Assembly (NCBI GenBank): GCA_024743195.1
Contig: JANSXE010000009.1
Coordinates: 62,001-126,000 of the forward strand
Source: Alphaproteobacteria bacterium
GTDB lineage: Bacteria; Pseudomonadota; Alphaproteobacteria; UBA8366; Aestuariispiraceae
Direction of reading: 5' to 3'
Length of the DNA: 64,000 nucleotides
Shown here one piece after another: positions 10,325-36,218 of the stretch (position 1 is the stretch's first letter; every line of letters begins with the position of its first letter). A model generated the notes under the pieces. That model saw only the letters and a program-made list of their open reading frames with translations. It had not been told where the DNA came from and made no database searches. Position numbers and translations under genes: made by a program.

Positions 10325-10370
10325 GCCGAGGCAGACGGGGCTGCTGGCTGGTCAAGGGGGCGACCGGACG

Positions 10371-11393: not shown

Positions 11394-11416
11394 GCGACGG
11401 CAGGGAGGAGGCGGGT

Positions 11417-13637: not shown

Positions 13638-13786
13638 GCCGCGGTCGGAGCTGACGCCGGTGATGCGCGCGTCGTCCCCGGGCCGACCGTCGGTCCGCGC
13701 TTGGGCGGCGCGCGCCTCAGCGTCTTCTTCGACGCGTCCCACAGCGCCCGCCGCGGCGCCCCTCACGACGCCCTGGGAGAGCGGGA

Positions 13787-13814
13787 GCGAGCCATCATGA
13801 GCGAGCCATCATGA
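13787..13814 (+). repeat. 14-bp tandem duplication over the potG start
   Basis: GCGAGCCATCATGA occurs twice without a gap (13787-13800 and 13801-13814). The second copy carries the potG ATG at 13811; the first carries an ATG at 13797 that opens a five-codon frame (MSEPS) whose stop overlaps the real start. The upstream ATG could act as a decoy or as a translational coupler. Confidence 0.85.
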
Positions 13815-14992: not shown

Positions 14993-15954
14993 GCGCGGGC
15001 GGCGATCCGCTGACGCTCGCCGCCGGGAGCCGCCGGGGCGCGGGGCCGTTCGTCCGGCTGCGCCGGCGGCTCTTCAGCGCGCGCACGGTGCTGCTGCTGC
15101 CGCCCTTTCTCTGGCTGTTGCTGTTCTTCCTGGCGCCCTTCGGGATCGTGCTGAAGCTCAGCTTCTCCGAGGCGGCGATCGCCATGCCGCCCTATCTGCC
15201 GATCTTCGAGTGGGCGGAGGGGCTGGTCCCGCGCTTCACCGGCACGCTCTACAATTTCAGCTTCCTGTTCACCGACGATCTCTACATCGTCGCCTATCTG
15301 AACTCGATCAAGATCGCGTTGGTCTCCACCATCGCCTGCCTGCTGATCGGCTATCCCATGGCCTACGGCATCGCCCGCGCGCCCGGCGCCTGGCGCAACG
15401 CGCTTCTGATGCTGGTGATTCTGCCCTTCTGGACCAGCTTCCTGATCCGCGTCTACGCCTGGATCGGCATCCTGAAGAACAACGGGCTGATCAATAACCT
15501 GTTGATCTCGCTCGGCGTGATCGACCAGCCGATCCAACTGCTGCACAACGACTTCTCGGTCTATGTCGGGATCATCTATTCCTACCTGCCCTTCATGATC
15601 CTGCCGCTCTACGCCAATCTGGCGAAGATGGACGAAAGCCTGTTGGAGGCGGCGGCGGACCTCGGCTGCCGGCCCTGGAAGACCTTCTGGGCGGTCACCC
15701 TGCCGCTGTCGCTGCCGGGGATCGTCGCCGGCTCCATGCTGGTCTTCATCCCGGCGGTGGGCGAATTCGTGATCCCGGAACTGCTGGGCGGCCCGGACAC
15801 GCTGATGATCGGCCGGGTCTTGTGGAACGAGTTCTTCCAGAACCGCGACTGGCCCGTCGCCTCGGCGGTGGCGATCGCGATGCTGTTGTTCCTCGTCGTG
15901 CCGATCGTGCTGTTCCAGCACTATCAGGGCAAGGATCAGGAGGCCGGGCGATGA
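14989..15954 (+). CDS. potH: Polyamine ABC transporter permease, first subunit
   Basis: A 321-residue inner-membrane permease with about six membrane segments and the EAA-type coupling loop (ESLLEAAADLGCRPWKTFWAVTLPLSLPG) that contacts the ATPase. The start is taken as GTG 14989, whose GTGA overlaps the potG stop; a GTG at 14947 would add 14 Arg-rich residues within potG. It forms a heterodimer with the next permease. By family knowledge this class couples only to PotF/PotD-like binding proteins, consistent with the operon order. Confidence 0.93.
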   Translation: MSAGGDPLTLAAGSRRGAGPFVRLRRRLFSARTVLLLPPFLWLLLFFLAPFGIVLKLSFSEAAIAMPPYLPIFEWAEGLVPRFTGTLYNFSFLFTDDLYIVAYLNSIKIALVSTIACLLIGYPMAYGIARAPGAWRNALLMLVILPFWTSFLIRVYAWIGILKNNGLINNLLISLGVIDQPIQLLHNDFSVYVGIIYSYLPFMILPLYANLAKMDESLLEAAADLGCRPWKTFWAVTLPLSLPGIVAGSMLVFIPAVGEFVIPELLGGPDTLMIGRVLWNEFFQNRDWPVASAVAIAMLLFLVVPIVLFQHYQGKDQEAGR

Positions 15955-20150: not shown

Positions 20151-22838
20151 ATGCAGCTCGACATGAAGGTGCTGGTCGGGAAGCTCGACCCGGCCTGCCG
20201 CAAGGCGTTGGAGCAGGCGGCGCAGCTTTGCGTGCAGCAGACCCATTTCCACGTCACGGCCGAGCATTTCCTGCTCAAGCTGCTGGAGCAGCCGGAGACG
20301 GATCTCGCCGTAGGGCTGGCGCCGCAGGATGTGGACGCGGGCGCGCTCGCGGCCGATCTGCAGGCGGCGGTGGACGGCCTGCGCCGCGGCAACACCCGCA
20401 CGCCGGCCTTGGGGCCGGAGATCGCGGAGCTGTTGCAGGCGGCCTGGATCTACAGCTCGGCCACGCTGGGGCAGACCGCCACGCGCTCGGCCGCGCTGTT
20501 GCAGGCGGCCTTGGAGACGCCGGCGATCGCCGGGCCGCTCCTAGAGGCGGCGCCCGCCTTCGCGGACCTGCCGGTCGAGACCCTGCGCGCCGCCTGGCCG
20601 GAGATCGTCAAGCACTCCCCCGAGGCGACCCCCACCGCGCATCAGGCCGCCAAGGCGGACGCGGAGGCCGCGCGCGAGGCGCGGCGCGACGCCCGCGCCG
20701 CGCGGGCCGCGAAGCAGGAGCCGGCCGCCGCGGATCCTGCGCAGGACGGGGCGGCGGGCGAGGACCCGCTGGCGGTGCTCGACCTCTACACCGTCTCGCT
20801 CACCGATCAGGCGCTGGTCGGCGCGATTGACCCGATCGTCGGGCGCGATGCGGAGATCCGTCAGGTCATCGACATCCTGATGCGCCGGCGCCAGAACAAT
20901 CCGATCCTGACCGGCGAGGCGGGCGTGGGGAAGACCGCGGTGGTCGAGGGCTTCGCCCAGCGCATCGCCGACGGCGACGTCCCGCCGCCCTTGAAGGAGG
21001 TGGACGTCCGCCTCCTCGACCTCGCGCTGCTGCAGGCCGGCGCCTCGATGAAAGGGGAGTTCGAGGAGCGCCTGAAGTCCGTGGTGGAGGCGGTGAAGGC
21101 GTCGGCCAAGCCGATCGTGCTGTTCGTCGACGAGGCGCACACCTTGATCGGCGCCGGCGGCGCGGCCGGGCAGGGCGATGCGGCGAACCTCCTCAAGCCG
21201 GCCCTCGCGCGCGGCGAATTGCGCACCGTCGCGGCCACCACCTGGGCCGAATACAAACGCTATATCGAGAAGGACCCGGCGCTCGCCCGGCGCTTCCAGG
21301 TGGTCAAGGTGGGGGAGCCGGAGGCGGAGCGCGCGGTCGCCATGGTGCGCGGCCTCGCCCGGCGCTTGGCGGACCATCACGGCGTGCGCATCCTGGACGA
21401 GGCGATCGGGGAGGCGGTGCATCTCTCCGCCCGCTACATCGCCGGCCGGCAGTTGCCGGACAAGGCGATCGCGGTCCTGGACACGGCCTGCGCGCGCGTC
21501 GCGGTCTCGCAAGCCGGCGAGCCGCCGGCGCTGGAGGCCGCGCGGCGGCTGGTCGAGCGGCTGACCGTCGAGATCGACATCCTGAAGGCCGAGCGGGTGC
21601 GCGCCGACGACCACGCCGCGCGCATCGCGCGGCTGGAGGGCGAGCGCACGGAGGCGGAGGCGGAGCGCGACGCGCTGGCCGAGCGCTGGGACGCCGAGCG
21701 CGATCTGGTCGAGGAGATGCGGGCGCTGCTCGACCGCCGCCTCGATCCGGAGGAGCCGCCGGGCGAGGGGTACGCCGCGCTTCAGGAAAAACTCGCCGCG
21801 GCGCAGGGCGACGAGCCCATGGTTGCGGCCGCCGTCGACGGCGCCGTCGTCGCCCAGGTGATCGCCGGCTGGACCGGCATTCCGGTCGGCCGGGTGATGC
21901 GCGACGAGATCGCGGGCGTGCTGGCGCTGGAGGATCGGCTGCGCGCGCGCATCGTGGGCCAGGACCATGCGCTCGCCGCCGTCGCCCGGCGCATCCGCAC
22001 CTACCGCGCCGGCCTCGACGACCCGGGCAAGCCGGTGGGCGTCTTCCTGTTCGTGGGCCCCTCCGGCGTGGGCAAGACGGAGACGGCGCTCGGCCTCGCC
22101 GAATTGCTCTATGGCGGGGAGCGCAACCTGATCACCGTCAACATGTCGGAGTTCCAGGAGGCGCACACGGTCTCGGCGCTGAAGGGCGCGCCGCCCGGCT
22201 ATGTCGGCTTCGGCCAGGGCGGCGTGCTGACCGAGGCGGTGCGCCGCGCCCCCTATTCCGTCGTGCTGCTGGACGAGGTGGAGAAGGCGCATCCGGACGT
22301 GATGGAGCTGTTCTTCCAGGTCTTCGACAAGGGGATGATGGAGGACGGGGAGGGCGTCGAGGTCGATTTCAAGAACACGGTGCTGATCCTGACCTCGAAC
22401 CTGGGCGACCGGATCATCCAGGAGGCCGCCTTCTCCGGCGCGGAGATGAGCGTCGAGGAGCTTGCCGCCAAGGTCCGCCCGGCGCTGCTGGAGCGGTTCA
22501 AACCGGCCTTCCTGGGCCGCCTGTCGGTCGTCCCCTATCTGCCGCTGGGCGAGGCGCAGATCCGCGCCGTGGTCGACCTCAAGCTCGCCCGCATCGCCGG
22601 TCGCTTCGCGGAGAACAACGGGGCCGAGCTCGCGCTTGCGCCCGAGGTCGCCGACGCGGTCGCCGCCCGCTCGACCGAGGTGGAGAGCGGCGCGCGCGCC
22701 ATCGACGCGATCCTGACCCACAACCTGCTGCCGGCCGTCTCCGACGCCGTGCTGGCCCGCATGGCCGACGGCGGCGCGTTCGCGCGCGCGACGGTGACGC
22801 TCGACGCCGGCGGGCATTTCGCGGTGGCGTTGGAATGA
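20151..22838 (+). CDS. tssH: Type VI secretion ATPase TssH (ClpV)
   Basis: The AAA+ disaggregase that recycles contracted T6SS sheath. The N-domain (1-150) is of the Clp type. Two ATPase modules are present: Walker A GEAGVGKT at 255-262 with LFVDEAHTLIGAGG, and GPSGVGKTE at 636-644 with LLDEVEKAHPDVMELFFQVFDKG. An alanine-rich linker at about 160-200 and a shortened coiled-coil middle domain (450-550) fit ClpV rather than ClpB. Length, 895 residues, is usual. The ATG at 20151 is used; ATG 20163 is possible. Its normal substrate TssBC is not encoded nearby, so it must act on sheath proteins from another locus. Confidence 0.95.
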   Translation: MQLDMKVLVGKLDPACRKALEQAAQLCVQQTHFHVTAEHFLLKLLEQPETDLAVGLAPQDVDAGALAADLQAAVDGLRRGNTRTPALGPEIAELLQAAWIYSSATLGQTATRSAALLQAALETPAIAGPLLEAAPAFADLPVETLRAAWPEIVKHSPEATPTAHQAAKADAEAAREARRDARAARAAKQEPAAADPAQDGAAGEDPLAVLDLYTVSLTDQALVGAIDPIVGRDAEIRQVIDILMRRRQNNPILTGEAGVGKTAVVEGFAQRIADGDVPPPLKEVDVRLLDLALLQAGASMKGEFEERLKSVVEAVKASAKPIVLFVDEAHTLIGAGGAAGQGDAANLLKPALARGELRTVAATTWAEYKRYIEKDPALARRFQVVKVGEPEAERAVAMVRGLARRLADHHGVRILDEAIGEAVHLSARYIAGRQLPDKAIAVLDTACARVAVSQAGEPPALEAARRLVERLTVEIDILKAERVRADDHAARIARLEGERTEAEAERDALAERWDAERDLVEEMRALLDRRLDPEEPPGEGYAALQEKLAAAQGDEPMVAAAVDGAVVAQVIAGWTGIPVGRVMRDEIAGVLALEDRLRARIVGQDHALAAVARRIRTYRAGLDDPGKPVGVFLFVGPSGVGKTETALGLAELLYGGERNLITVNMSEFQEAHTVSALKGAPPGYVGFGQGGVLTEAVRRAPYSVVLLDEVEKAHPDVMELFFQVFDKGMMEDGEGVEVDFKNTVLILTSNLGDRIIQEAAFSGAEMSVEELAAKVRPALLERFKPAFLGRLSVVPYLPLGEAQIRAVVDLKLARIAGRFAENNGAELALAPEVADAVAARSTEVESGARAIDAILTHNLLPAVSDAVLARMADGGAFARATVTLDAGGHFAVALE

Positions 22839-22997: not shown

Positions 22998-25157
22998 ATG
23001 GCTGACCCCGTCGGTTTCACGCAACAGAACCTGACGCTCTCCGTCGACACGCCGTTGGGCGACGACGCTTTTTTGCTGAAGGGGCTGCGCGGGACGGAAG
23101 CGCTCTCGCAGCTCTTCCGCTACGAATTCACGCTCGCCTCCGAGGAGGCGGAGATCGACTTCTCCCAGATCGTCGGGCAGAGCGTCACCGCCAGCATCGC
23201 GCTCGGCGACGGGGAGACGGTCCGCTATGTGAACGGGATCGTCACCCATTTCACCCAGCATGACAGCGACCCGCGGCTGTGGTTCTACCGCGCGGTGGTG
23301 GAGCCGACCTTCTGGTTGGGGACGCGCAAGGCCGATTGCCGCATCTTCCAGGACCAGTCGGTCACCGACATCATCGAGACGGTGCTGGGGGAACTCGGCG
23401 TCACCGACTATTCGCTTGAGACCGCCAGTTCCTACGAGGCGCGGGAGTACTGCGTGCAGTACAACGAGACCAGCTTCGACTTCCTGAGCCGGCTGATGGA
23501 GGCGGAGGGGATCTTCTACTTCTTCCGCCATGAGAACGGGAAGCACACGCTGGTGCTGGCCGACGATTCCGACGTGCATGAGGAGTGCCCGGGCGCGGCG
23601 AGCGTCTTCTACCGGCCGGACCGGAGCGGCGCGCGGGAGGACGAGGACGCGATCTTCCAACTCGCCTACACCGAACGGGTGGCGACCGATTCCTTCGCGG
23701 CGCGCGACTACAATTTCGAGCAGCCGACGACCGACCTGACGACGACGGCCGAAGGCGGCGCCTCCGGCTCGGACATGGAGGTCTATGAGTATCCGGGCGG
23801 CTATCTGACGAAGGATGCGGGCGACGCGCTGGCCGATCTGCGCCTGCAGGCCTTCGAGACCCCGACCAAGGAGCTGTCCGGCCGCTCCACCGTGAAATCC
23901 TTCATCGCAGGCTACAATTTCACGCTCGACTGGCACGAGCGGCCGAGCCTCAACGCCGCCTACATGATCCGCGAACTGACGATCAGCGCGGACGCGGACC
24001 GCTATGAGAACCGCTTTACGGCCCAGCCGGCGACCCACCCGTTCCGCCCGGCGCGGCTGACCCGCGTCCCGCGCATCCACGGCGGCCAGACGGCGCTGGT
24101 CGTCGGCAAGTCGGGAGAGGAGATCTGGACCGACGAGTACGGCCGCATCAAGGTCCAGTTTCCTTGGGACCGGGAGGACGCGCAGGACGAGACGTCGAGC
24201 TGCTTCGTGCGCGTCGCCCAGGGCTGGGCCGGCAAGAGCTGGGGAAGCTGGTTCCTGCCCCGCATCGGGATGGAGGTGGTGGTCAGCTTCCTGGAGGGGG
24301 ACCCGGATCGGCCGCTGGTCACGGGCTGCGTCTACAACGGCGACAATCGGCAGTCCTACACGCTGCCCGACGACCAGACCAAGAGCTGGATCAAGACCAA
24401 CAGCTCCAAGGGCGGCGAGGGCTCGAACGAGCTGCGCTTCGAGGACAAGGCGGGCGAGGAGGAGGTCTATCTGCACGCCCAGAAAGACTGGAACAGCGAG
24501 GTCGAGAACGCGCGGACCACGACGATCAAGGAAGGCGACGACACGCTGACCCTGGAGCAGGGCGACCGCACGCTGGAGGTCCAGTCCGGCGACGAGACGC
24601 ACACGATCGCCGGCTCGCGCACGCTCAGCGTCGACGGCGCCCAGGACCACACCACCGGCGACGGCTTCACCCACAAGGTGACCGGCGACTACACGCTGAA
24701 AGTCTCCGGCGACCTGACGATCAACGCGACCGGAAAGGTCACGATCAAGGCCGGCGACGCGATGGTCCTCCAGGCCGGCTCCGACGGCACGCTGAAAGCC
24801 GGGCAGAACCTGACCGTCCAGTCCGGCATGGATTTCACCCAGAAGTCGGGCAAGAACCTCGACATCTCCTCGGCCATGGACACGACCAACGAAGCCGGCA
24901 TGAACATGACCACCAAGGCCGGCATGAACATGAAGAACGAGGCCGGCATGAACCTCGAGGAGAAGGGGGGCATGAACTACAAGGCCGAGGGCGCCATGAA
25001 CCACGAAGCCAAGGGCGGCATGCAGCTCAAGGCCGAGGGCGGCATGCAGGCCAGCGTCAAGGGCGGCATGCAGGGCACCTATGAAGGCGGCATGATGGGC
25101 ACGCTCAAGGGCGGCGTCATGGCGGCCCTCAAGGGTGCGATCAACAAGCTGGGCTGA
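22998..25157 (+). CDS. vgrG: Type VI secretion spike protein VgrG (TssI)
   Basis: The membrane-puncturing spike of the T6SS, 719 residues. Residues 1-360 resemble the gp27-like Rhs/VgrG domain (FLLKGLRGTEALSQLF near the start). The gp5 OB-fold is at about 375-455 (YGRIKVQFPWD, then GMEVVVSFLEGDPDRPLVTG). A beta-helix with TLTLEQGDRTLEVQSG-like rungs follows. From 609 to 712 it continues as thirteen consecutive octapeptides with Gly or Ala at position 2 and mostly Met at position 3, ending in AINKLG. No enzymatic C-terminal extension is present, so cargo must ride on PAAR or an adaptor. It is followed five bases later by the MORN_2 gene. Confidence 0.95.
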   Translation: MADPVGFTQQNLTLSVDTPLGDDAFLLKGLRGTEALSQLFRYEFTLASEEAEIDFSQIVGQSVTASIALGDGETVRYVNGIVTHFTQHDSDPRLWFYRAVVEPTFWLGTRKADCRIFQDQSVTDIIETVLGELGVTDYSLETASSYEAREYCVQYNETSFDFLSRLMEAEGIFYFFRHENGKHTLVLADDSDVHEECPGAASVFYRPDRSGAREDEDAIFQLAYTERVATDSFAARDYNFEQPTTDLTTTAEGGASGSDMEVYEYPGGYLTKDAGDALADLRLQAFETPTKELSGRSTVKSFIAGYNFTLDWHERPSLNAAYMIRELTISADADRYENRFTAQPATHPFRPARLTRVPRIHGGQTALVVGKSGEEIWTDEYGRIKVQFPWDREDAQDETSSCFVRVAQGWAGKSWGSWFLPRIGMEVVVSFLEGDPDRPLVTGCVYNGDNRQSYTLPDDQTKSWIKTNSSKGGEGSNELRFEDKAGEEEVYLHAQKDWNSEVENARTTTIKEGDDTLTLEQGDRTLEVQSGDETHTIAGSRTLSVDGAQDHTTGDGFTHKVTGDYTLKVSGDLTINATGKVTIKAGDAMVLQAGSDGTLKAGQNLTVQSGMDFTQKSGKNLDISSAMDTTNEAGMNMTTKAGMNMKNEAGMNLEEKGGMNYKAEGAMNHEAKGGMQLKAEGGMQASVKGGMQGTYEGGMMGTLKGGVMAALKGAINKLG
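24822..25133 (+). repeat. VgrG-tail 24-bp degenerate repeat array
   Basis: The DNA for residues 609-712 is thirteen 24-bp units, most containing GGCATGAA or GGCATGCA at the same phase. DNA similarity is highest among units four to eleven (about 24894-25085), so the array probably grew by recent duplication of whole rungs of the beta-helix. Confidence 0.8.
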
Positions 25158-25162
25158 GGGCG

Positions 25163-26116
25163 ATGGCGGACGCGGCCGACGACGATGCAAAGCCTCTCGA
25201 TCCGGCGGACCCGGCGTTCGACGCCTTCTTCGCGGCGATGGACGAGCCGGGCGGCGACGGCCCGCCGGACGGCGACTACGAGGATCTGGACGCCAAGGGC
25301 CGGCCCCGCGCGCGCTATACGATCCGCGACGGCAAGCTGGACGGCCCGGCGGAATTCTATCGCGACGGCGCGGTCACCCAGCGCTGCGCCTTCCGCGCCG
25401 GTCTGCTGCACGGGCCCTGCCAGGTCTACGAGGAGGGCGTGCTGCTGCAAGAGGCCCATTTCGTCGACGGCGTGATCGACGGCGAGGCGGTCAACTATGT
25501 GGACGGCGCGCCGGCCAGCCGCTTCACCTATCGCGACGGCCGGCCGCACGGCGCCGCCGACTTCTACGAGGCCGGCGCGCTCACCCAGCACTCCACCTTC
25601 GACCAAGGCTATCTGGAGGGAGAGACCGTCTTCTACGACGCCCAGGGCGAGGTGGCGCAGCGCCTGCCCTATCGCGACGGCCTGAAGGAGGGGAAGGGCG
25701 TGCTCTACGACCAGGGCCGCCGGCTGGTCGAGATCGACTTTGTCGAGGACCGCATGACGGGTTGGCTCGTCACCTATGGCCCCACCGACAAGCCGATGGC
25801 GCGGATTCCCTATCGCGACGGGCTGAAAGAGGGCGAGGCGCGCTATTTCGACCTGGACGGCCGGCTGGTGAAGACGGAGAGCTACGCCGCCGACAAGCTC
25901 GACGGCCCGACGCGCGAGTACCTGCCCGGCGGCCCCTGCCTGAAGGAGAGCCCCTACGCCGCGGGCAAGCTGGACGGTTGGGTGGTCGAATACTCGCCCA
26001 AGGGCAAGGAGACCTTCCGGCAGGAGTTCAAGGGGGGCGAGCCCGTCGGACCGAAGCTGGAGAAGACCCGCTTCGGCCGCCGCGAGGCCGGCGACGGCGA
26101 GGCGGAGGAAGACTGA
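25163..26116 (+). CDS. MORN_2 (YwqK-type) repeat protein
   Basis: A 317-residue soluble protein without signal peptide, built of about ten 23-24-residue repeats from residue 50 to 300. The repeat is roughly YRDG-x-x-x-G-x-x-x-x-Y-x-x-G-x-L. This is the MORN_2 repeat that databases label as a YwqK-family antitoxin. Lying between vgrG and PAAR, it holds the usual position of an effector, an immunity protein or a loading adaptor, but no toxin domain is found next to it. An acidic N-terminal 45 residues (several Asp and Glu) and a charged C-terminal tail flank the repeats. Function is inferred from place only. Confidence 0.75.
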   Translation: MADAADDDAKPLDPADPAFDAFFAAMDEPGGDGPPDGDYEDLDAKGRPRARYTIRDGKLDGPAEFYRDGAVTQRCAFRAGLLHGPCQVYEEGVLLQEAHFVDGVIDGEAVNYVDGAPASRFTYRDGRPHGAADFYEAGALTQHSTFDQGYLEGETVFYDAQGEVAQRLPYRDGLKEGKGVLYDQGRRLVEIDFVEDRMTGWLVTYGPTDKPMARIPYRDGLKEGEARYFDLDGRLVKTESYAADKLDGPTREYLPGGPCLKESPYAAGKLDGWVVEYSPKGKETFRQEFKGGEPVGPKLEKTRFGRREAGDGEAEED

Positions 26117-26181: not shown

Positions 26182-26472
26182 ATGGCCATGCCCGCCGCCG
26201 CCCTGACCGCGATGCATGTCTGTCCGATGGTGACCGGCGTGGTGCCGCATGTGGGCGGCCCGATCGCCTCGCCCTCCATGGCGACCGTTCTGGTCGGCGT
26301 GCTGCCGGCGATCGGCCCGGGCTCCACGGGCGTCTGCGTCGGCCCGCCGGACAGCGTCGTCATGGGCTCGCCCACCTGCCTGGCGGGAAGCCTGCCGATG
26401 GCGCGGGTGGCGGACAGCTGCGCCCATGGCGGAACCATCGTGGTCCCGCAACCGACCGTGCTGCTGGCCTGA
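26182..26472 (+). CDS. PAAR-domain spike tip protein
   Basis: A 96-residue minimal PAAR protein that would sharpen the VgrG tip. It starts MAMPAAALTAMHVCPM, has PHVGGPI and VLVGVLPA blocks and a C-terminal CAHGGTIV segment; His13, the central cysteines and His near residue 83 can bind zinc. There is no N- or C-terminal extension, so it carries no built-in toxin. ATG 26182 agrees with the family N-terminus; a few bases upstream GAGGAGACG acts as the ribosome-binding site. Confidence 0.9.
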   Translation: MAMPAAALTAMHVCPMVTGVVPHVGGPIASPSMATVLVGVLPAIGPGSTGVCVGPPDSVVMGSPTCLAGSLPMARVADSCAHGGTIVVPQPTVLLA

Positions 26473-26777
26473 ACGCCGGGCCCAAGGACTCGCAAATATT
26501 GAGCACGGCGTTCGTTGTGCGGTGGCCGATTTCTTGATCCCGAGTCCTGCCGAATCCTTTGCTCTTGGTTTTCCCGTTTCATAGATGCTGCGTTTTCTCT
26601 TCTATCCACCACAATATGTGGCGCGCGGAAAAATATGTTTTTCTTATGAATGCTTTCTTGTGCGTCGGATTCCTCCAGTGATATCATGCGGTTAAGGTGA
26701 TCTATATTTGGCGGTCAGGATCCTATCCTCCGCCAGATGTTGTGTTTTCGGTTTCCGGAACAGGAGCGGCGGCCGGT
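26473..26777 (+). other. AT-richer spacer before the SPOR-tssJKLMA block
   Basis: The 305-bp gap has several A/T-rich stretches unlike its surroundings. A TATCAT word near 26691 could be a -10 element, but no good -35 partner is 17 bp upstream, and I saw no sigma-54 GG/GC pair. This is the likeliest place for a second promoter in the T6SS cluster. No small gene is evident. Confidence 0.45.
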
Positions 26778-27815
26778 ATGGCGGCGGCGAGCATGGGCGG
26801 CGACGACGGAAGCGGGTTCGGCGGGTTCCGGGCGTCCGAGGGGCGCGGCGGCGGCTCGCTGCTGGGCCTGTTGGGGCTTGCCGCGGAAGGGCGCCTCCGG
26901 TCCCGGCCGCGCGGCCGGCCCTATTCCCGTACGGCCTACGAGGCGGCGCCGCGCATCCGCCAGGGCGGCGCGCCGCTGCGCGTGGCGCTGTCGCCGGCGG
27001 CGGCCTACGGCGTCTTCGGCGGCGCGACGGCTGCGGCCTTTCTGCTGTTCCTCGCCGGATTCCTCGCCGCCTTCTGGCTGGTCGCGCCGGACGGGGCGCC
27101 GGTCGCGGAGCGCGCGCCGGCGCCCGCCGTCGCAGCGCCGGAGGCGGGCGCGGCGGCCGGCGGGTTGATCCCGCGCGCGACTGCGGGCGATGCGCCGGAG
27201 ACGCGCGCCCCGCCCGCGCCCGAGATCGCGGCGGCGGAGCGCGCCATGGCGCCGCGGGTCGAGACGCCGCAACTGGCGGCCTTGCCGACCGCCGTGGCGC
27301 CGGCGACGGAAGCGCCCGCGGCGCCGATGACGGAAGCGCCCGCGGCGCCGGCGACGGAAGCGCCCGCGGCGCGAACCGCGCCCGTGACCGTCCCGTCGGC
27401 CCCTCGGGCGCGCCTCAAACCGGTGCTCGGCGACGCGGCCGGCGGCGGTGTGGCCCGCGAGCCAATGCCGGTTGAGGATATGAGCGCTAGCCCGCCCGAG
27501 CCGCCTGCGGCTGCGTCGAGCGGTTTCACGGCGCCTGGGACCTCTTCCGAAGCGTCGGACGTCGGCGCCGGGGCCGCGTACGAGCTTCAATTCGGCGCTT
27601 TTCGGGAGCGCGCCAATGCGGACGCCTTGCTGGCCGGGGCCCCGGAAAGTCTGGGCGCCCGGCTGGTGGAAAGCCGCGATGCGGCCGGCCGGCCCTTGTA
27701 TTTCATCCGGGCCGGCGGCTTTGAAACAGCGGCCGAGGCGCGCGCCGCCTCCGCGCGGATCGAGCGAGAGGCCGGCCTCAAGAGCTTCGTGCGGCGCGAT
27801 GCGGGGGCGAGCTAG
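26778..27815 (+). CDS. Membrane-anchored SPOR-domain protein in the T6SS cluster
   Basis: A 345-residue bitopic protein. The first 75 residues are Gly/Arg-rich and cytoplasmic; a membrane helix spans about 77-101 (VFGGATAAAFLLFLAGFLAA). A long Ala/Pro-rich periplasmic linker includes three copies of an eight-residue AP-x-TEAPA unit. The C-terminal ~75 residues form a SPOR domain (YELQFGAFRERANADAL ... YFIRAGGF). SPOR domains bind peptidoglycan strands lacking stem peptides. ATG 26778 has AGGAG eleven bases upstream; GTG 26697 is the less likely alternative. It ends three bases before tssJ, so it belongs to that transcript and could anchor the membrane complex. Confidence 0.82.
   Translation: MAAASMGGDDGSGFGGFRASEGRGGGSLLGLLGLAAEGRLRSRPRGRPYSRTAYEAAPRIRQGGAPLRVALSPAAAYGVFGGATAAAFLLFLAGFLAAFWLVAPDGAPVAERAPAPAVAAPEAGAAAGGLIPRATAGDAPETRAPPAPEIAAAERAMAPRVETPQLAALPTAVAPATEAPAAPMTEAPAAPATEAPAARTAPVTVPSAPRARLKPVLGDAAGGGVAREPMPVEDMSASPPEPPAAASSGFTAPGTSSEASDVGAGAAYELQFGAFRERANADALLAGAPESLGARLVESRDAAGRPLYFIRAGGFETAAEARAASARIEREAGLKSFVRRDAGAS
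27297..27368 (+). repeat. 24-bp in-frame tandem repeat (x3) in the SPOR gene
   Basis: Three consecutive 24-bp units, two identical and one with two changes, encode the Ala/Pro/Glu linker. Unit number change would lengthen or shorten the linker by eight residues without a frameshift. Confidence 0.9.
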
Positions 27816-27818
27816 ACG

Positions 27819-28328
27819 ATGGCCGGTCGGCGTCTTGGCGCGCGGACGGCGCGGCCTCTTGCGGCGGCGCTGAGCGGGCTCCTTCTCCTGGCCGGCTGCG
27901 GGCTCGTCGGCGACTCGGCGCCCGTTTTCTCCATGCAGTGGGTGTCGCTGGCGTCGGAGCCGGCGTCGAACCGCAACAACCCGACGCCGGTCGATCTGGT
28001 GCTGGTGTACGATCCGGCGGCGTCCGATCAACTCGCCGGCCTGACCGCGGCCGATTGGTTCCGCCGCAAGCCGCAGGTGCTGCGCGATTTCCCGCGCGGC
28101 GTGAAGGTCATCGGCTGGGAGGTCGTGCCGGATCAGGTGATCGCCCCGCGCGAACTGGAGGACGAGGATCTGGAGAACGCCGACGGCGACGCTCCCCGGG
28201 CCGCCTTCGTCTATGCGGACTTCTTCACGCCCGGCGACCATCGCGCGCGCCTGGAGGCGCAGCGCGCCGTGCGCATTCGCCTGGGGTCGGACGATTTCAC
28301 CCTCGAATCCTTTGATCCGCCGAATTGA
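27819..28328 (+). CDS. tssJ: Type VI secretion lipoprotein TssJ
   Basis: A 169-residue outer-membrane lipoprotein: basic N-terminus, hydrophobic stretch and lipobox LLAGC with Cys27. The mature domain contains NPTPVDLVLVYDP and ADWFRRKPQVLRDFP, matching the small beta-sandwich of TssJ in which a loop contacts TssM. It is followed by tssK, L and M, the usual neighbours. The sequence is divergent from gammaproteobacterial SciN, so the name rests partly on the neighbourhood. Confidence 0.8.
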   Translation: MAGRRLGARTARPLAAALSGLLLLAGCGLVGDSAPVFSMQWVSLASEPASNRNNPTPVDLVLVYDPAASDQLAGLTAADWFRRKPQVLRDFPRGVKVIGWEVVPDQVIAPRELEDEDLENADGDAPRAAFVYADFFTPGDHRARLEAQRAVRIRLGSDDFTLESFDPPN

Positions 28329-28518
28329 CGACTGGCGGATTTCTTTACCGGCTAAAGGGAAGCCGGGACAGCCGCTCGCCTTTATTGTAGGCTCCGACTG
28401 CGTTTTCTTGTGGCTTCGGGTCCGCATCGGATAGACTTGAGCTCCGGCGGCCGCGTCACGGGGCAGGCCGACGGAGTGTGGGGACGCGGGGACGCGGACG
28501 CGAAGGGGATCTCTCGCC

Positions 28519-29871
28519 ATGCCGAAGTCGGCGCAGGACGTACCGGAGGCGATCGAGTGGCATGAGGGCATGCTGCTCGCCCCGCAGCATTTCCAGCAAC
28601 TGGCGCTGCGCGCGGAGACGCTCACCGCCTATCATACGCTGGCCGCGCAGCCCTTCCATTGGGGCGTGCGGCATCTGAAGACCGACCCGGTGCTGCTGGT
28701 CTCGGGCGTCTTTCGCGTGCTGGAGTTGGAGGCGGTGCTGCCCGACGGGCTGATCGTCCGCCACGTCCAGGGCGAGGGCGAGCCGCTGGAGATCGACCTG
28801 ACGGCCCAGGCCGACCGGCTGGCCCGCGGCCCGCTCCGGCTTCATCTGGCCGTGCCGGTCCGCCGCCCCGGCGGCCGGCCGACGGGGGGCGACCTGCCGC
28901 GCTATCGCAGCGTCGAGGGCGCGCCGGTCGGCGACGAGACCTCGGGCGAGAACGCGCTGTCGATCCCGCGCCTTGCGCCGCGCCTGTCGCTGATCGCGGC
29001 GGACGCGCTCGCCGAGAAGTATGTCGGCTTCCCGATCGCCGAGATCGCGCTGGAGGAAGAGGCCTTCACCCAGACCCGCTTCGTCCCGCCGGCGCTCGCC
29101 GTCGCCCGCGCGTCGCCGATCGGGGAGGCCTGCACGGCGCTTGCGGCGCGGCTGCGCGAGAAGGCGGTGTTCCTGGCCGAGCGGGCCAAGACCCCGCTCA
29201 GCCAGAGCGATCGGCCGATGCTGCATCAGACCCAGACCCTGCTGCACGGCCTCGTGGCGGGGCTGCCGCAGTTCGAGGCGATCCTGAAGACCGACCGCTG
29301 TCACCCGTTTCCGCTCTATCTCGCGCTCACCAACATCGTCGGGCACATGACGGTCGTCGGCGGCGCGCTGGCGCCGCCGGCGCTCTCGGCCTACGACCAT
29401 GACGACATGCGCGCGTCCTTCGAACAGGCGATCCAATTCGCCGTCCAGATGCTCGACCGGGTGTCGGAAGCTTACGTCGCTTTGCCCTTCTTGGAGGAGG
29501 AGGGCGTTTTCCGCCTGACGCTCGACCCCGCCTGGTGCGACGAGGCCCTGACCATCGGCGTGCGCGCCCGACCGGAGATGACCGAGTCCGACGTCATCGC
29601 CTGGATCGAAGGCGCGTTGATCGGCTCTGAGGGCGCGCTCACCTCGATGCAGGAGCGCCGCGTGCTCGGCGCCGGGCGCCGGCGCATCGACCGCGACGAC
29701 GCGCTGGACCTGACCCCGACCCGCGGCGTGGTGCTGTTCCGCATCGAGATCGATCCGGAATTCATCGAGCCGGGGGAGCCGCTCCTGGCGCTCTCCGGCG
29801 ACCGCGGGCGCGAGCCGCCGCAGGAAATCGTCCTCTACGTCCGCAATCCCGCGGGCGAGGATGCGGGCTGA
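28519..29871 (+). CDS. tssK: Type VI secretion baseplate protein TssK
   Basis: A 450-residue cytoplasmic protein that links the baseplate to the membrane complex. The N-terminal signature IEWHEGMLLAPQHFQQ is diagnostic of TssK; the middle helical bundle and the C-terminal domain (VVLFRIEIDPEFIEPGEPL) are complete. A 190-bp spacer without hairpins separates it from tssJ, while tssL follows 16 bp after its stop. Baseplate partners TssE, F and G are not encoded in the window. Confidence 0.95.
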   Translation: MPKSAQDVPEAIEWHEGMLLAPQHFQQLALRAETLTAYHTLAAQPFHWGVRHLKTDPVLLVSGVFRVLELEAVLPDGLIVRHVQGEGEPLEIDLTAQADRLARGPLRLHLAVPVRRPGGRPTGGDLPRYRSVEGAPVGDETSGENALSIPRLAPRLSLIAADALAEKYVGFPIAEIALEEEAFTQTRFVPPALAVARASPIGEACTALAARLREKAVFLAERAKTPLSQSDRPMLHQTQTLLHGLVAGLPQFEAILKTDRCHPFPLYLALTNIVGHMTVVGGALAPPALSAYDHDDMRASFEQAIQFAVQMLDRVSEAYVALPFLEEEGVFRLTLDPAWCDEALTIGVRARPEMTESDVIAWIEGALIGSEGALTSMQERRVLGAGRRRIDRDDALDLTPTRGVVLFRIEIDPEFIEPGEPLLALSGDRGREPPQEIVLYVRNPAGEDAG

Positions 29872-29887
29872 ACGGAAGGCCCGATCC

Positions 29888-30826
29888 ATGGCCGCACCCG
29901 CCGCCGCCTCCCCCGCAACCGGCAGCGCCGGCCTGTACGTTCTGGATCAGTTCCGGGAGTTCTACGCCGAGGTGATGCGGCTGCGCGGGCTGGCGCTGAA
30001 GAGCGGCCGGGCGCGCGCCCGCGCCAAGGCCGCCGCCCGGACGCCCGATCCGCCGCCCGAAGGCGTCCTGCGGCCGGCGCCGCCGCCTCTGCCCGGCAAG
30101 GCGAAGCCCAAGGACGCGCCGGAGCCGGAGGCGGCGCCGGACGACGCCGCGCCCGTCGACGACGCGGCCGCCGGCGAGGCCAAGCCGCTGATCACGCCCG
30201 AGGAGGCGGTGCAGCAGCTGCAGTCGCTGTTGGAGATGCAGGCGCTGGAAGCCGGACGTCGCGGCGGCGAATACGGCGTCCTCTATTACCGTGAAGCGCA
30301 ATATGTGATGGCGGCGCTCGCCGACGAGATCTTCCTGCATCTCGACTGGCCGGGTCGGGGGCGTTGGAAGGACGACCTGCTGGAAACGCGGCTCTTTGGC
30401 ACTTATTCGGCGGGCGAGACGTTTTTTCGCGACTTGGACAAGCTGCTCGCCGGCGGCGATCGAGTGCAGGCGGAGATCGCGCTGATCTATCTGCTCGCGC
30501 TGTCGCTCGGCTTCCGCGGCAAGTATCGCGGCGGCAAGCACGACCAGCGTCTGGCCGACTATCGCAAGCAACTCTACGCCTACATCTATCAGCGCCGGCC
30601 CGACCTCGCCGACCAGACTCGGCGCCTTGCGGCCCAGGCGTACGACCACACGCAGATGGACGCGGTCCCGCGGATGCTGCCGTCTCCGGCGCGGTGGTTC
30701 TGGGTCCTGGGCGCCGCGGTCGTCGCCTACATCGTCGTCGGCCATCTGCTGTGGGGCGATGCAGTCGGCCCCTTGCTCGAGGTGCTGGATCGCGCCGGCG
30801 CTCCGCCGCCGGACGGGTCGTCATGA
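29888..30826 (+). CDS. tssL: Type VI secretion inner-membrane protein TssL (short form)
   Basis: A 312-residue protein with the DotU/TssL cytoplasmic helical domain (YYREAQYVMAALADEIFLHL ... GFRGKYRGG) and a single C-terminal membrane helix at about 270-290. It ends about 20 residues after the helix, so it lacks the OmpA-like peptidoglycan-binding domain of extended TssL forms. A Pro/Ala/Asp-rich linker occupies about 50-105. ATG 29888 is preferred to ATG 29861, which overlaps tssK. The stop overlaps the tssM start (ATGA). Confidence 0.93.
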   Translation: MAAPAAASPATGSAGLYVLDQFREFYAEVMRLRGLALKSGRARARAKAAARTPDPPPEGVLRPAPPPLPGKAKPKDAPEPEAAPDDAAPVDDAAAGEAKPLITPEEAVQQLQSLLEMQALEAGRRGGEYGVLYYREAQYVMAALADEIFLHLDWPGRGRWKDDLLETRLFGTYSAGETFFRDLDKLLAGGDRVQAEIALIYLLALSLGFRGKYRGGKHDQRLADYRKQLYAYIYQRRPDLADQTRRLAAQAYDHTQMDAVPRMLPSPARWFWVLGAAVVAYIVVGHLLWGDAVGPLLEVLDRAGAPPPDGSS

Positions 30827-33800
30827 GCTGGTTCGACGCCATCCGGGACCTGCTGTTCCGCCTCACCCCCTATCTGCCGAGCATCATCGGCATGCTGGTG
30901 GTGTCGGCGTTGTCGATCCTGACCGCGGTGTGGCTCCTGGTGCGGCGCTCGCGCAAGGCGGCGGCCGACGCCGCCGCCGACGAGGAGCGCGAGGCCGAGG
31001 CCCTGGACGCGGCCGAGCCCTTCCAGGTCGAGCCGGACGATCTGCCGCTGCTGCCGATGCGCAAGAGCTTCCGGCATGCGCTGAAGCTGCTGAAGATGCA
31101 TGTATCCGGGCGGGACTGGCGCTACGCCATCCCCTGGTATCTGCTGATCGGTCCGGAAGGGGCCGGCAAGTCCACGCTGATCCGCAATACGGACATGAGC
31201 CTGCCCGTCGGCGCGCCCGCCGACGATTGGGAGGACGTCCGCCCGGCCTGCAAATGGTGGTTCTTCGACCGCGGCGTGGTGCTGGACGTGGCCGGCCAGC
31301 TCGTGCGCGCCCGGCGCAGCCTGAACTCGGACCGCAAGGCCTGGAGCCTGCTGCTGCGTCTGCTCGACCATCACCGGCCGCGCCGTCCGGTCGACGGCGT
31401 GATCCTGACGCTGCCGATCGACGATCTGCTGGGGCCCGACGGCGCCCCCTTGCCGACGGAGCAGGTCGCCGAGCGCGCCGAGGCCCTCTACAAGAAGCTC
31501 TGGCAGGCGCAGAGCGTGCTCGGCCTCGCCTTCCCGGTCTATGTGATCGTCACCAAATGCGACCGGCTGACCGGCTTCAAACCCTTCGTGCAGGAACTGC
31601 CCGACAGCGCGCACGCCGACATGCTGGGCTGGTCCAGCCCCTACAGCGTCGAGACGGAGTTCCGGCGCGAGTGGGTCGACGAGGCGGTCGATCAGATCGA
31701 CGGCGCCGTGCGCGCCGCCCAGATGGAGCTGTTCGCCGAGCGCGCCGACCTTCCCGAGGCCGAGGCGCTCTTCCTGTTCCCGGGGGCGATCGAGAGACTG
31801 CGCGAACCGCTGGCCGAGGCGCTGCGCCATCTCTTCAAGGCGAGCGCCTATCACGAGGCCTTCTCGCTGCGCGGCGTCTATCTGACCGGCGACGGCGGCG
31901 CGCCGCCACCGCAGGGCCTGCGGCCCCTGCCGGTGCTGCCCGGGGTCTACGCCGGCCCGAAGGAGGAGGTGCGGCCCGCTTTCCTGCACGACCTCTTCGA
32001 GGACAAGATCTTCCCCGAGAACGGTTTGGCGCGGCCGGCGCGGCGCGCGCTGCTGTCGCGCAACCGCACGGCGCTCGCCGCGCAGGCGGCGCTCGCGGCG
32101 CTGGTTGTGGGCGGCGGTCTCGGCCTCGCCGTCGACTATGGCGCGCTGCAGCGCGGCGTCGCCTCGGTCGAGCCCTTGGTGCGCACCGTCCAAAGCGACA
32201 TGGCTGAGGTGGAGGCCTTGCGGCGCGCGGCGCTCGCCCGCGGCGAGGCGCCGGCCGGGCGCGGCAGTTTCGACCGGGAGAAGGCGCTCACCCTGCTCGA
32301 CGGCATGTCTCGGGTCGAGGCGGACAGCTTCGCCAAGCTCTTCATGCCGACCAGCTGGGCGACGTCGGTCGACGAGCGGATCGTCCGCGTCACCACCGAG
32401 GCCTTCAATCATTTCATTCTGCAGACCATGCGCGCGGCCCTGGTCGACCGGGGCGCAGCGATCGTCGAGGGGCGGCTGGCGGCGGCCGGCGCCGAAGCGG
32501 ACGCGGGGCCCGAGAGAACGTCCGGTGTCGAAGCCCTTGCGGCCGCCCTTCCCGGGGCGGCGGTCGACTACGGGCCGGAATACGCCCAATTGCGGCGTTA
32601 CGTCGAGGCGCTGCGGCGCTTCGAGGACGCTGTCGACCGCTTCAATGCGTTGCGCGCCCGCCGGCAACTTGGCGACGTCAAGGCGCTGGTCGACTATCTC
32701 TTCGGCGTCTCCCTGCCGGATGAGTTCCTCGAGAACGCCGGCTTTTACGAGGCGGCGCTCGACACCATCGAGTACCGGCCGATCGCGCTCGAGGAGTTTC
32801 GCGACCCGGCCGTCAGCCGACACCGGCGCTTCGCGAACGAGGCGCTGCCGGCGCTGTTCGCGGAAAACCCGCTGTTGGCGGGGTTGCGGCGTCTGGGGGT
32901 CCAACTCGACGACGCGGCCAATCGGCGCGCGGGCGGCGTGCAGGAGATGCAGGCGCTGCGCGACAGAATCGCGGAGCTGCGGGGGATGTTCGATCAACCG
33001 CGCTACGCCTGGATGGAGGATGCGACCTTCGACGCGGCGGTCGGTTTCGCGGGCCTGCTGGAGAGGGTCGGCGGATCGGCACTGCTGGGCCCGACGCTGG
33101 CGGCGGAATTCGAACGCGCGGCGCGCCGCGGGGTCGAGGACGTGCGCAACGAGATGCCGGACCTGCGGTCCTTCGCGGTCGGCCCGCTGCTGGCGGAGGA
33201 GGGGGCGCGCCCCGTGCTGGCGTTCTCCGAGCCGGTGGCGGCGCTCGACGATCTGCTGGCGCAACTTTTCGAGCGGCCCTTCATGCGCGACGGGCCGGCG
33301 CAACGTCTGCCCGGCGCGCCGCCGAGCGGGGTTGTCGCGCTGTGGAACGGCGATCGGCTCGACGAGGGGCTGGCGCTGATCGACGACTATGACGATTTCA
33401 TGCGCGCCGAGTTGCAGCGCGCGCCGAGCGCGTTGCACGGCATGATCCGTGCCTCTGCGGCGGAACGCCTCGGGCGCGCCGTCAACGATCAGATCGCCCG
33501 GGCGCTGGAAATCGGCCGCGGCGGCGCCGGCGCCGGCTTGCGGGTCGAGGAGGCTTTGCGCCGGGAGGTTCGCAGCCTCAGCGAAGCGGCGCCGCCGCTC
33601 AGCCGCATCTTGGCGACCTATGACGAACTCGCGCTCGAAGACAGCTATCTCGATCTCAGCGATCTGATGATCGGCCATGCGGTGGGGCTGATCGAACAGG
33701 CGGACGCGCTCTTCGCGGGCGAGGCCTTCTACGAGCCGCAGGGCGGGGATTTCACCTGGTGGGACGGCTCCGCCGGGATGGCGCTGGAGGCGTTCCGGGC

Positions 33801-34980
33801 GCGCGATCGCTTCGAGTTGACGGACGTGCTGGCCCGGCAACGCGAGCGCATCCAACTCCTCTCGCAGGAATATGTGCGCCCCCTGGTCGGCTTCCTGGAT
33901 GCGCGCGAGGTCCGATTGGCCTCCGCCGCCGAGACCCTGGTCGGCAAGTGGCGGCGCATCGGGGACGAGTTGGAGAAGTACGCGCTGCGCCGGGCCGACA
34001 ACTCCGTCTCCGAGCTTGAGAGCTTCATCACCGGGCCGATGACCGTCGTGACCTTCGCGACCTGCCGGGAGACGCTGGACAGCGTCGGGTTGAGCGGCGA
34101 GGGCGCCCGCGGGGGCGATTTCTTCCTGCAGCGGATCGACCGCTTGGCGCGCGGCATTCGCCAGCGCTGCGCCGATCTCGCCGGCGTGCAGGCGCAGACC
34201 TCCTACCGCGCGATCCATGACGCCTTTGGCGATACGCTGGCGGGGCGCTACCCCTTCGTACCCGCCGGATATCGGCAGGACGCGCCGGAGGCGAGCCCGC
34301 GCGATCTGGCCGCCTTCTTCGCCGTCTACGACCGCGAGGCGGGGCCGGCCCGGCAGGCGCTGACGGAGGCCGTGGATCTCGGCTTCGCCCGCGACCGGGC
34401 GCTCGACTTCCTAGACCGAATGGATCAGGTGCGGGCGCTGTTCGGGCCGTGGCTGGCGGCGCCGGGCGCCGACGACGCGCCGGTCTTCGACGTCAGCGCG
34501 ACCTTCCGCGTCAACCGGCCGCGCGAGGCCGGGGCCAATCAGGTGATCGAATGGGCGCTCCAGATCGGACCGCAGCGGCTCGACCAACGCACGCCCGACG
34601 CCACGGCGCGCTGGGGCCTGGGCGAGCCGGTGACGCTCACCTTGCGCTGGGCCGAGAACTCCACCATGACGCCCGCGCTCGACCCCGACCGTCCGGAACT
34701 GTCGGTCAGCGGGCGCACGCTGACCGTCGGCTACGCCAACGCCTGGTCGCTGTTCGAACTGATCCGGCGGTTCCGGGCCGGGTCCGACGATTTCGAGCAG
34801 TTCGTCGATCCACGGCCGCACACCTTGCGGGTCGACGCGCCGACCCGTCCGGCCGGCGGCGGGCCGGTGGCGCTCGCGCGGCTGTTCCTGCGCGTCGAAC
34901 TGACGGCGGAGACGGCGGAGGGCGCCCAGCCCGTCGTGGTTCCGACCTTCCCGGCGCGCGCGCCCGAAGTCCTGGAGTGA
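30823..34980 (+). CDS. tssM: Type VI secretion inner-membrane protein TssM (IcmF)
   Basis: The 1385-residue core of the membrane complex. An N-terminal hydrophobic region lies at about 15-42. A cytoplasmic NTPase domain has Walker A GPEGAGKST at 110-118 and VIVTKCDRLTGF as the G4-like motif. A second membrane helix is at about 417-437. The large periplasmic part contains the IcmF-related helical region and the C-terminal beta domain that contacts TssJ. It is longer than enterobacterial TssM. The intact P-loop suggests an ATP-binding type. Confidence 0.95.
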   Translation: MSWFDAIRDLLFRLTPYLPSIIGMLVVSALSILTAVWLLVRRSRKAAADAAADEEREAEALDAAEPFQVEPDDLPLLPMRKSFRHALKLLKMHVSGRDWRYAIPWYLLIGPEGAGKSTLIRNTDMSLPVGAPADDWEDVRPACKWWFFDRGVVLDVAGQLVRARRSLNSDRKAWSLLLRLLDHHRPRRPVDGVILTLPIDDLLGPDGAPLPTEQVAERAEALYKKLWQAQSVLGLAFPVYVIVTKCDRLTGFKPFVQELPDSAHADMLGWSSPYSVETEFRREWVDEAVDQIDGAVRAAQMELFAERADLPEAEALFLFPGAIERLREPLAEALRHLFKASAYHEAFSLRGVYLTGDGGAPPPQGLRPLPVLPGVYAGPKEEVRPAFLHDLFEDKIFPENGLARPARRALLSRNRTALAAQAALAALVVGGGLGLAVDYGALQRGVASVEPLVRTVQSDMAEVEALRRAALARGEAPAGRGSFDREKALTLLDGMSRVEADSFAKLFMPTSWATSVDERIVRVTTEAFNHFILQTMRAALVDRGAAIVEGRLAAAGAEADAGPERTSGVEALAAALPGAAVDYGPEYAQLRRYVEALRRFEDAVDRFNALRARRQLGDVKALVDYLFGVSLPDEFLENAGFYEAALDTIEYRPIALEEFRDPAVSRHRRFANEALPALFAENPLLAGLRRLGVQLDDAANRRAGGVQEMQALRDRIAELRGMFDQPRYAWMEDATFDAAVGFAGLLERVGGSALLGPTLAAEFERAARRGVEDVRNEMPDLRSFAVGPLLAEEGARPVLAFSEPVAALDDLLAQLFERPFMRDGPAQRLPGAPPSGVVALWNGDRLDEGLALIDDYDDFMRAELQRAPSALHGMIRASAAERLGRAVNDQIARALEIGRGGAGAGLRVEEALRREVRSLSEAAPPLSRILATYDELALEDSYLDLSDLMIGHAVGLIEQADALFAGEAFYEPQGGDFTWWDGSAGMALEAFRARDRFELTDVLARQRERIQLLSQEYVRPLVGFLDAREVRLASAAETLVGKWRRIGDELEKYALRRADNSVSELESFITGPMTVVTFATCRETLDSVGLSGEGARGGDFFLQRIDRLARGIRQRCADLAGVQAQTSYRAIHDAFGDTLAGRYPFVPAGYRQDAPEASPRDLAAFFAVYDREAGPARQALTEAVDLGFARDRALDFLDRMDQVRALFGPWLAAPGADDAPVFDVSATFRVNRPREAGANQVIEWALQIGPQRLDQRTPDATARWGLGEPVTLTLRWAENSTMTPALDPDRPELSVSGRTLTVGYANAWSLFELIRRFRAGSDDFEQFVDPRPHTLRVDAPTRPAGGGPVALARLFLRVELTAETAEGAQPVVVPTFPARAPEVLE

Positions 34981-34988
34981 GAAGCCCT

Positions 34989-36218
34989 ATGAGCGAGCCC
35001 GACCAGAGCCAAGAGGCCGCGGCCGACGCCGCCCCGGTCCAGCCGCCGCCGGTGGCGGAGGACGGCCCGCCCGAAGCGCTCCTGGCGGAGCTGCCGGGCC
35101 CGGAGGGTCCATGCGGCGCCTCGCTGCGCTATGACCCGTTGTTCGACGAGATCCGCGAGGCGCGGCGCGAGGAGGCGGACCTGCCGCAGGGCGTGTGGGA
35201 GCGCGAGGTGAAGCGCGCCGACTGGGGGCATGTCCGCGACCTGTGTATGGAGGCGCTGTCGGAGCGCTCGAAGGACCTGCATCTGGTGTTCTGGCTGACC
35301 GAGGCCTGGACCCATCTGGAGGGGGTGCGCGGCTTCCGGCGCGGGATCGATCTCGCCTGTTCGCTTTGCGAGGACTACTGGGAGGATCTTCATCCGGCGA
35401 TTTCGGAGGACGGCGACCTCGACTTTCGGCTGGGGCCCGTGCAATGGGCGAACACGCAGTTCGGCCGGCTGCTGCAGCTCGCGCCGATCACCGCCCCGGT
35501 GGGGGACGCGCGTCCCTACGACCTGCACGCCTGGCGCGACGTCCTGCGGATCGAGAATCTGCGCGAACGCGACGCGAAGTCGGCCGAAAGGGAGGGGCGG
35601 CGCAAGCCCAGCCGCGGCGCCTTCGAAGCCAGCGTCAGCCTGACGCCGGTCGATTTCTATGTGGATCTGGTGCTGATGGTCGAGGCGGCGTTGGGCGAGG
35701 TTGCGCGCCTCGACGCGATCCTGGAGCAGCGAGCGGGCAAGGAGGCGCCGAGCCTCGGCCAGATGCGCCGGACGCTGCAGGAGATCGACGAACTGGCGCG
35801 CCGCTATCTGGCCGACAAGGGCGGCGAACTGCCCAGCGAAGAGACGGCCCCCGAGACGGGCGACGAGACGGGCGACGAGACGGGGGAGAGCGGCGCATCG
35901 CAGGCCGCCCCAGTCGAAGCCGCGTCGAAGGAGGCGGAGATGGCGGAGAAAACGAACGCCGGCGCGGGCGCGTCGGGTCCGATCGACAGTCGGGCGGAAG
36001 CCTATCGGCGCCTCGCGGAGGCGGCCGATTACCTGATGCGCACCGAGCCGCACAGCCCCGTGCCCTATCTGATCCGGCGCGCCGTGGTCTGGGGCGAGAT
36101 GAGCTTCGGCGAACTGCTGGTGGAGCTGATGGAGAACGGCGGCGACCACCAGCGGGTCCTGCGCCTGCTCGGCCTCGACGAAATGGGCCGACCCCAGGAC
36201 GGAACGCCCAAGAGCTGA
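34989..36218 (+). CDS. tssA: Type VI secretion protein TssA
   Basis: A 409-residue protein with an ImpA_N domain at about 35-170 (GPEGPCGASLRYDPLFDEI and LTEAWTHLEGVRGFRRGI). TssA starts or caps sheath assembly. The C-terminal region (SRAEAYRRLAEAADYLMRTEPHSPVP) fits the short TssA class. Between them an acidic spacer contains repeated ETGD units encoded by a 12-bp tandem repeat near 35855-35890. The start has a weak ribosome-binding site eight bases after the tssM stop, so translation is likely coupled. It ends the visible T6SS block. Confidence 0.92.
   Translation: MSEPDQSQEAAADAAPVQPPPVAEDGPPEALLAELPGPEGPCGASLRYDPLFDEIREARREEADLPQGVWEREVKRADWGHVRDLCMEALSERSKDLHLVFWLTEAWTHLEGVRGFRRGIDLACSLCEDYWEDLHPAISEDGDLDFRLGPVQWANTQFGRLLQLAPITAPVGDARPYDLHAWRDVLRIENLRERDAKSAEREGRRKPSRGAFEASVSLTPVDFYVDLVLMVEAALGEVARLDAILEQRAGKEAPSLGQMRRTLQEIDELARRYLADKGGELPSEETAPETGDETGDETGESGASQAAPVEAASKEAEMAEKTNAGAGASGPIDSRAEAYRRLAEAADYLMRTEPHSPVPYLIRRAVVWGEMSFGELLVELMENGGDHQRVLRLLGLDEMGRPQDGTPKS

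Follow-up and report, generated by a model that had tools for sequence, protein, structure and literature searches.

The window, i.e. the whole 64,000-nucleotide stretch of alphaproteobacterial DNA that was analysed, carries a type VI secretion system (T6SS) gene cluster in which tssJ is directly preceded by a gene for a bitopic protein of 345 amino acids with a C-terminal SPOR domain (26778–27815, forward strand). This SPOR protein is most likely a dedicated wall-anchor protein of the T6SS. We put the probability at about 0.68 that it is a T6SS-dedicated inner-membrane accessory, which fastens the membrane complex to the cell wall through its SPOR domain. Usually, an OmpA-type domain on TssL or an accessory such as TagL holds the T6SS membrane complex to the wall (PMC8253398, PMC10433429). 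A SPOR-based anchor is favoured here because TssL has no wall domain, because the SPOR gene shares an operon-like block with tssL, and because natural fusions of TssL with a SPOR domain exist.

Architecture and fold of the SPOR protein

The reading frame of the SPOR gene is open from a GTG at 26697 (26697–27815, 372 amino acids), and SPOR is its single Pfam domain (PF05036, residues 292–367, 37.5 bits; cut-off 21 bits). The ATG at 26778 is the better start, since a relative (L016) keeps 'MAAAS' at this position. From this ATG, hydropathy predicts a basic cytosolic head of 84 amino acids, one transmembrane helix (residues 85–103), a linker (104–262) and the SPOR domain (about 263–345; Pfam match at 27570–27797, forward strand). 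About half of the 159 residues of the periplasmic linker are proline (30) or alanine (48). The cytosolic motif 'AYE.AP[KR]I' before the helix, the periplasmic motif 'P.PEIA.AE' and the SPOR domain are kept in the window's family, and the remainder of the protein is variable. The predicted topology and the SPOR match are those of an inner-membrane protein with a periplasmic wall-binding domain. Hence, the bitopic layout, long periplasmic linker and C-terminal SPOR domain described in the initial annotation were all recovered, as was its spacing of three bases between the SPOR gene (stop at 27815) and tssJ (ATG at 27819).

In the AlphaFold2 model, most of the SPOR domain has a pLDDT above 90, whereas the linker scores low. 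A Foldseek search with this model returned the SPOR domain of RlpA with denuded glycan first (6i09, TMt 0.71) and the glycan-free form second (6i05), with the SPOR domain of DedD in the top five. The confident model and the RlpA and DedD matches indicate the RNP-like beta-alpha-beta-beta-alpha-beta fold of PF05036. No specific family for the protein was found in NCBIfam. Pfam detected SPOR alone and no OmpA/Pal/MotB domain (PF00691), and the protein is therefore not classed as a homologue of TagL.

The T6SS gene cluster

All genes of the cluster lie on the forward strand. Upstream of the SPOR gene are clpV (tssH; 20151–22838; AAA_2/ClpB domains), vgrG (tssI; 22998–25157; PF05954, 321 bits), a gene for a MORN-repeat (YwqK-like) protein (25163–26116; PF07661) and a gene for a PAAR protein (26182–26472; PF05488, 39.5 bits). 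Downstream of it are tssJ (27819–28328), tssK (28519–29871; PF05936, 152.9 bits; TIGR03353), a short form of tssL (29861–30826), tssM (30823–34980; 1385 amino acids; PF14331, 196 bits) and tssA (34980–36218; PF06812; TIGR03363). The genome has a single tssB-family match, located on another contig (C31). There, a second cluster (locus L170, G000 C31:247500-267400, about 9568–15656) contains tssB, tssC, hcp, tssE, tssF and an open reading frame in the tssG position (putative tssG), so that the T6SS is split over two loci but its main parts are present.

The MORN-repeat protein between vgrG and PAAR is kept in the T6SS loci of the window's family, and shorter MORN/YwqK versions adjoin vgrG in other lineages. 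A YwqK protein beside vgrG has been termed an antitoxin (PMC8163844).

TssJ of the window is an outer-membrane lipoprotein (lipobox Cys27) that is too divergent for a Pfam match; of 17 relatives, three gave a weak match to T6SS-SciN in Pfam. The AlphaFold2 model of the window's TssJ has a TssJ-like fold: all seven of its PDB matches with E < 0.001 are TssJ chains (6ixh, 3zhn, 4a1r; E from 1e-6 to 5e-4). TssL (321 amino acids) contains the DotU domain and no other domain in Pfam (PF09850, 105.9 bits). Its sole transmembrane helix (residues 279–297) is followed by a tail of 24 residues, in agreement with the initial annotation that TssL ends soon after its helix and has no OmpA-like domain. It is hence a short-form TssL, with DotU, one C-terminal transmembrane helix and no peptidoglycan-binding extension, and the same short tail occurs in seven relatives. 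In the window's family, TssL is extended at its N-terminus, so that about 110 residues with proline-rich 'PPPLPG' repeats precede DotU (29861–30190 in the window).

Conservation of the SPOR gene beside tssJ

We scanned 387 alphaproteobacterial genomes with PF09850, which gave 71 genomes with DotU. DotU regions of at most 20 kb were taken from most of these 71 genomes, and local profiles were built from them. The TssL search of genome contigs yielded six close relatives only; the wider survey used whole genomes. A further search of the orders to which G145 and G074 belong covered only three genomes and added one SPOR–tssJ pair (L250). The FastTree topology of the T6SS loci had long branches, and its broad split alone was relied on.

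In total, 26 SPOR–tssJ pairs, one of them doubtful, were found across 13 family-level groups. They comprise 18 pairs in the 85 T6SS loci, six pairs with a displaced tssJ, and the pairs L250 and L251. The doubtful pair (G119) has a local E of 0.01 and no Pfam match, and the SPOR gene of G156 scores 19.6 bits, slightly under the Pfam cut-off. Nine genomes of the window's family encode a DotU protein, of which eight have the T6SS type of the window. The SPOR gene directly precedes tssJ in all eight, the eighth pair being located on a separate contig end. The initial annotation had made its proposal depend on conservation of the SPOR gene with the T6SS loci of relatives, and the 26 pairs in 13 groups show that the gene is encoded and conserved together with T6SS genes.

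Gap lengths were tabulated for 24 pairs, with L250 and L251 kept apart. Of these gaps, 23 lie between -20 and +32 bp, and the two further pairs have 4-bp overlaps. The gap in L065 is uncertain, the start of its tssJ being unclear. The number of SPOR matches per genome ranges from one to seven, with five in the source genome; in G307 the gene beside tssJ is the only one. With so few SPOR genes per genome, the repeated adjacency to tssJ is not due to chance.

Most proteins of the pairs share the motif F..GF in the transmembrane helix. Those of L066, L186 and L196 differ, and the proteins of L186 and L196 have an N-terminal transmembrane helix and no cytosolic head. We regard the SPOR genes beside tssJ as one family and not as the result of repeated recruitment. 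Two loci (L072, 7166–7777; L100, 12444–12974) have a gene directly before tssJ for a bitopic protein with no detectable SPOR domain, which suggests a version of this family after loss of the SPOR domain. G074 has a tandem pair of SPOR genes before tssJ (L066, 6330–7802).

Proposed wall anchoring and the short TssL

In the proposed mechanism, the SPOR protein would be made together with TssJ and placed in the inner membrane beside the TssJLM complex, where it may contact TssJ, TssM or TssL. Its flexible linker would cross the periplasm, and the C-terminal SPOR domain would grip the glycan strands of peptidoglycan. The membrane complex would thereby be fastened to the wall, a task that elsewhere falls to the OmpA-type domain of TssL or to TagL. 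Given the gene linkage to tssJ, the partner of the protein may be TssJ or TssM.

We found three natural TssL–SPOR fusions (DotU plus SPOR; L247, 34.4 bits; L249, 28.0 bits; L248, 19.0 bits and thus just under the cut-off) in three genomes of one genus outside the Alphaproteobacteria, in another T6SS lineage. Fourteen proteins of the DotU–SPOR architecture were reported in 2012 (PMC3326028). These fusions show that a SPOR domain can occupy the position of the OmpA anchor on TssL, and they make the functional link between SPOR and T6SS more than a matter of gene position.

Among the 85 T6SS loci, the 18 with SPOR beside tssJ all belong to one T6SS lineage and have a short TssL and the gene order tssJ-K-L-M-A. 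TssL with an OmpA domain occurs in 15 loci, all of another clade, and the two features coincide in none of the 85. Each of the two features characterises a single lineage, so their mutual exclusion counts as a single contrast. An OmpA-type anchor elsewhere within the T6SS loci was sought and not found. In related lineages with a short TssL (L059–L064, L149–L159), tssJ has no SPOR gene as a neighbour; a short TssL hence does not require the SPOR protein.

The initial annotation had proposed that the SPOR protein replaces the peptidoglycan anchor of TssL. This idea is borne out insofar as the protein is linked to the T6SS, always accompanies a short TssL and never a TssL with an OmpA domain, and has a counterpart in the fusions. 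It fits less well with the sister lineages and with a linkage to tssJ rather than tssL. The suggested survey of SPOR genes beside tssJ against short TssL gave a similarly mixed outcome: every pair has a short TssL, but the correlation comes from a single lineage, with short-TssL sisters that have no adjacent SPOR gene, and is not independent evidence for replacement.

Possible glycan recognition and alternative roles

The glycan recognised by SPOR domains is free of peptide stems; in RlpA it is contacted by Q270, by A273-F274 and by a basic patch that includes R311 (PMC6895207). Gln270, Ala273-Phe274 and, from the basic patch, the last arginine (Arg311) of RlpA are matched in the window protein. 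The corresponding residues (Gln271, Gly273-Ala-Phe275, Arg311) are invariant in the window's family but not in all 13 groups. Binding of denuded glycan by the window protein is plausible from these residues. Outside the window's family, these glycan contacts are kept only in part. The glutamine itself is replaced by Glu (f74, f118, f15, f81), by His (f139) or by Arg/Glu (f36), or fails to align (f151), in around half of the groups, and recognition of denuded glycan may therefore not be the conserved trait.

These residues bear on the possibility that the protein serves to position the T6SS and does not carry load as an anchor, with the SPOR domain bringing T6SS assembly to amidase-processed, denuded glycan at the septum or at remodelling sites. 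We regard this role as possible but tentative: it would agree with the known binding property of SPOR domains (PMC6895207), with the RlpA–denuded glycan complex as closest fold match and with the key glutamine of the window's family, whereas the variation at that glutamine in the other groups speaks against it. About as tentative is the extended version, in which the SPOR component would read denuded glycan and thus tie T6SS assembly to wall processed by amidases, at the septum or at remodelling sites, in a T6SS lineage shared by free-living and putatively intracellular alphaproteobacteria, the intracellular lifestyle being judged from genome size and cluster layout.

The constant neighbour of the SPOR gene is tssJ and not tssL, the pair stays together when tssK-L-M are elsewhere, and overlap or near-overlap of the two genes is almost universal. 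This pattern would suit a protein that is mainly an assembly partner of TssJ or TssM, for example one that keeps the lipoprotein or TssM close to an opening in the wall or brings in a wall hydrolase, while its SPOR domain senses the wall. Such a role is less likely, as the TssL–SPOR fusions point to TssL, and the clpV–tssA cluster showed no peptidoglycan hydrolase gene.

In Alphaproteobacteria, ftsN is a neighbour of nagZ. The other four SPOR proteins of the source genome are an FtsN-like protein encoded beside a GH3/NagZ-type gene (contig C20), a D,D-carboxypeptidase, a lipoprotein and RlpA, and the F..GF motif of the transmembrane helix sets the window protein apart from them. An ordinary FtsN/DedD-like cell-division protein that sits in the cluster by accident is very improbable in spite of the same general architecture, and we rejected this housekeeping identity as largely refuted by the conserved adjacency to tssJ in 13 groups, by the separate FtsN-like gene, and by the ninth genome of the family (G002), which has a canonical T6SS only, four SPOR matches genome-wide instead of five, and no SPOR gene within its T6SS locus.

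Comparison with known systems

Like the window protein, TagL (SciZ) of EAEC Sci-1 is a T6SS-encoded inner-membrane accessory with a periplasmic peptidoglycan-binding domain and a partner TssL that has none (PMC8253398). The described features set the two apart: TagL spans the membrane three times and contacts DAP of the peptide through an OmpA/Pal/MotB domain, whereas the window protein has one helix and a SPOR domain, and the SPOR domain of RlpA binds glycan stripped of peptides. Specialised TssL proteins with a C-terminal peptidoglycan-binding domain, including the rare DotU–SPOR form (PMC3326028), would be expected to perform the same task, and the fusions in L247 and L249 have the same SPOR domain. 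In contrast to this form, SPOR of the window is on a separate protein with its own transmembrane helix, encoded before tssJ.

TagP, TagN, TagW, TagV (SH3b) and TagX are likewise associated with the T6SS and bind or cut the cell wall, but TagP is a TssM derivative, TagV an SH3b protein and TagX an endopeptidase, and none is described as a SPOR protein (PMC10433429, PMC7614798). FtsN, DedD and DamX share the bitopic layout, long disordered linker and C-terminal SPOR domain. However, they are cell-division proteins not encoded with the T6SS, and the genome's own FtsN-like protein lacks the F..GF motif.

A 2019 structural study assigns every known SPOR protein to cell division or morphogenesis (PMC6895207). 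The peptidoglycan anchors described for T6SSs are of the OmpA type (TssL, TagL), the SH3b type (TagV) or uncharacterised (TagN, TagW) (PMC8253398, PMC10433429, PMC7614798). Among the inspected papers that join type VI secretion and SPOR domains, SPOR appears as a T6SS component only in the 2012 note on the fusion (PMC3326028). A SPOR protein built into this T6SS lineage, in no fewer than 13 family-level groups, would be a further kind of wall attachment and might sense the chemistry of the wall. The docking site of the T6SS in the wall and its dependence on wall remodelling become testable in the culturable Marivibrio halodurans and Pacificispira spongiicola.

Displaced tssJ genes in reduced genomes

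The pairing of SPOR and tssJ bears on the T6SS of reduced genomes as well. Many reduced genomes of the lineage have tssK-L-M-A without tssJ nearby, a layout reported in Paracaedibacter-like symbionts (PMC8163844). A 2025 review describes the T6SS of Holosporales as having no tssJ (PMC11909080). In contrast, our tssJ profile detected tssJ in 26 of the 28 genomes searched, positive controls included, and most of the reduced alphaproteobacterial genomes among them do have tssJ, often paired with SPOR. There, tssJ lies away from tssK-L-M (loci including L174, L176, L177, L178 and L186).

The SPOR gene is located directly 5' of the displaced tssJ in six genomes (G156, G370, G053, G307, G337, G119). 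Hence, where the cluster is split, it travels with tssJ and not with tssL. In several reduced lineages SPOR is not beside tssJ; together with the proteins of L072 and L100 that have no SPOR domain, this implies that the SPOR protein is dispensable in some members. In L154, a single open reading frame of 635 amino acids (9448–11355) matches both the TssL and TssM profiles and is a possible TssL–TssM fusion.
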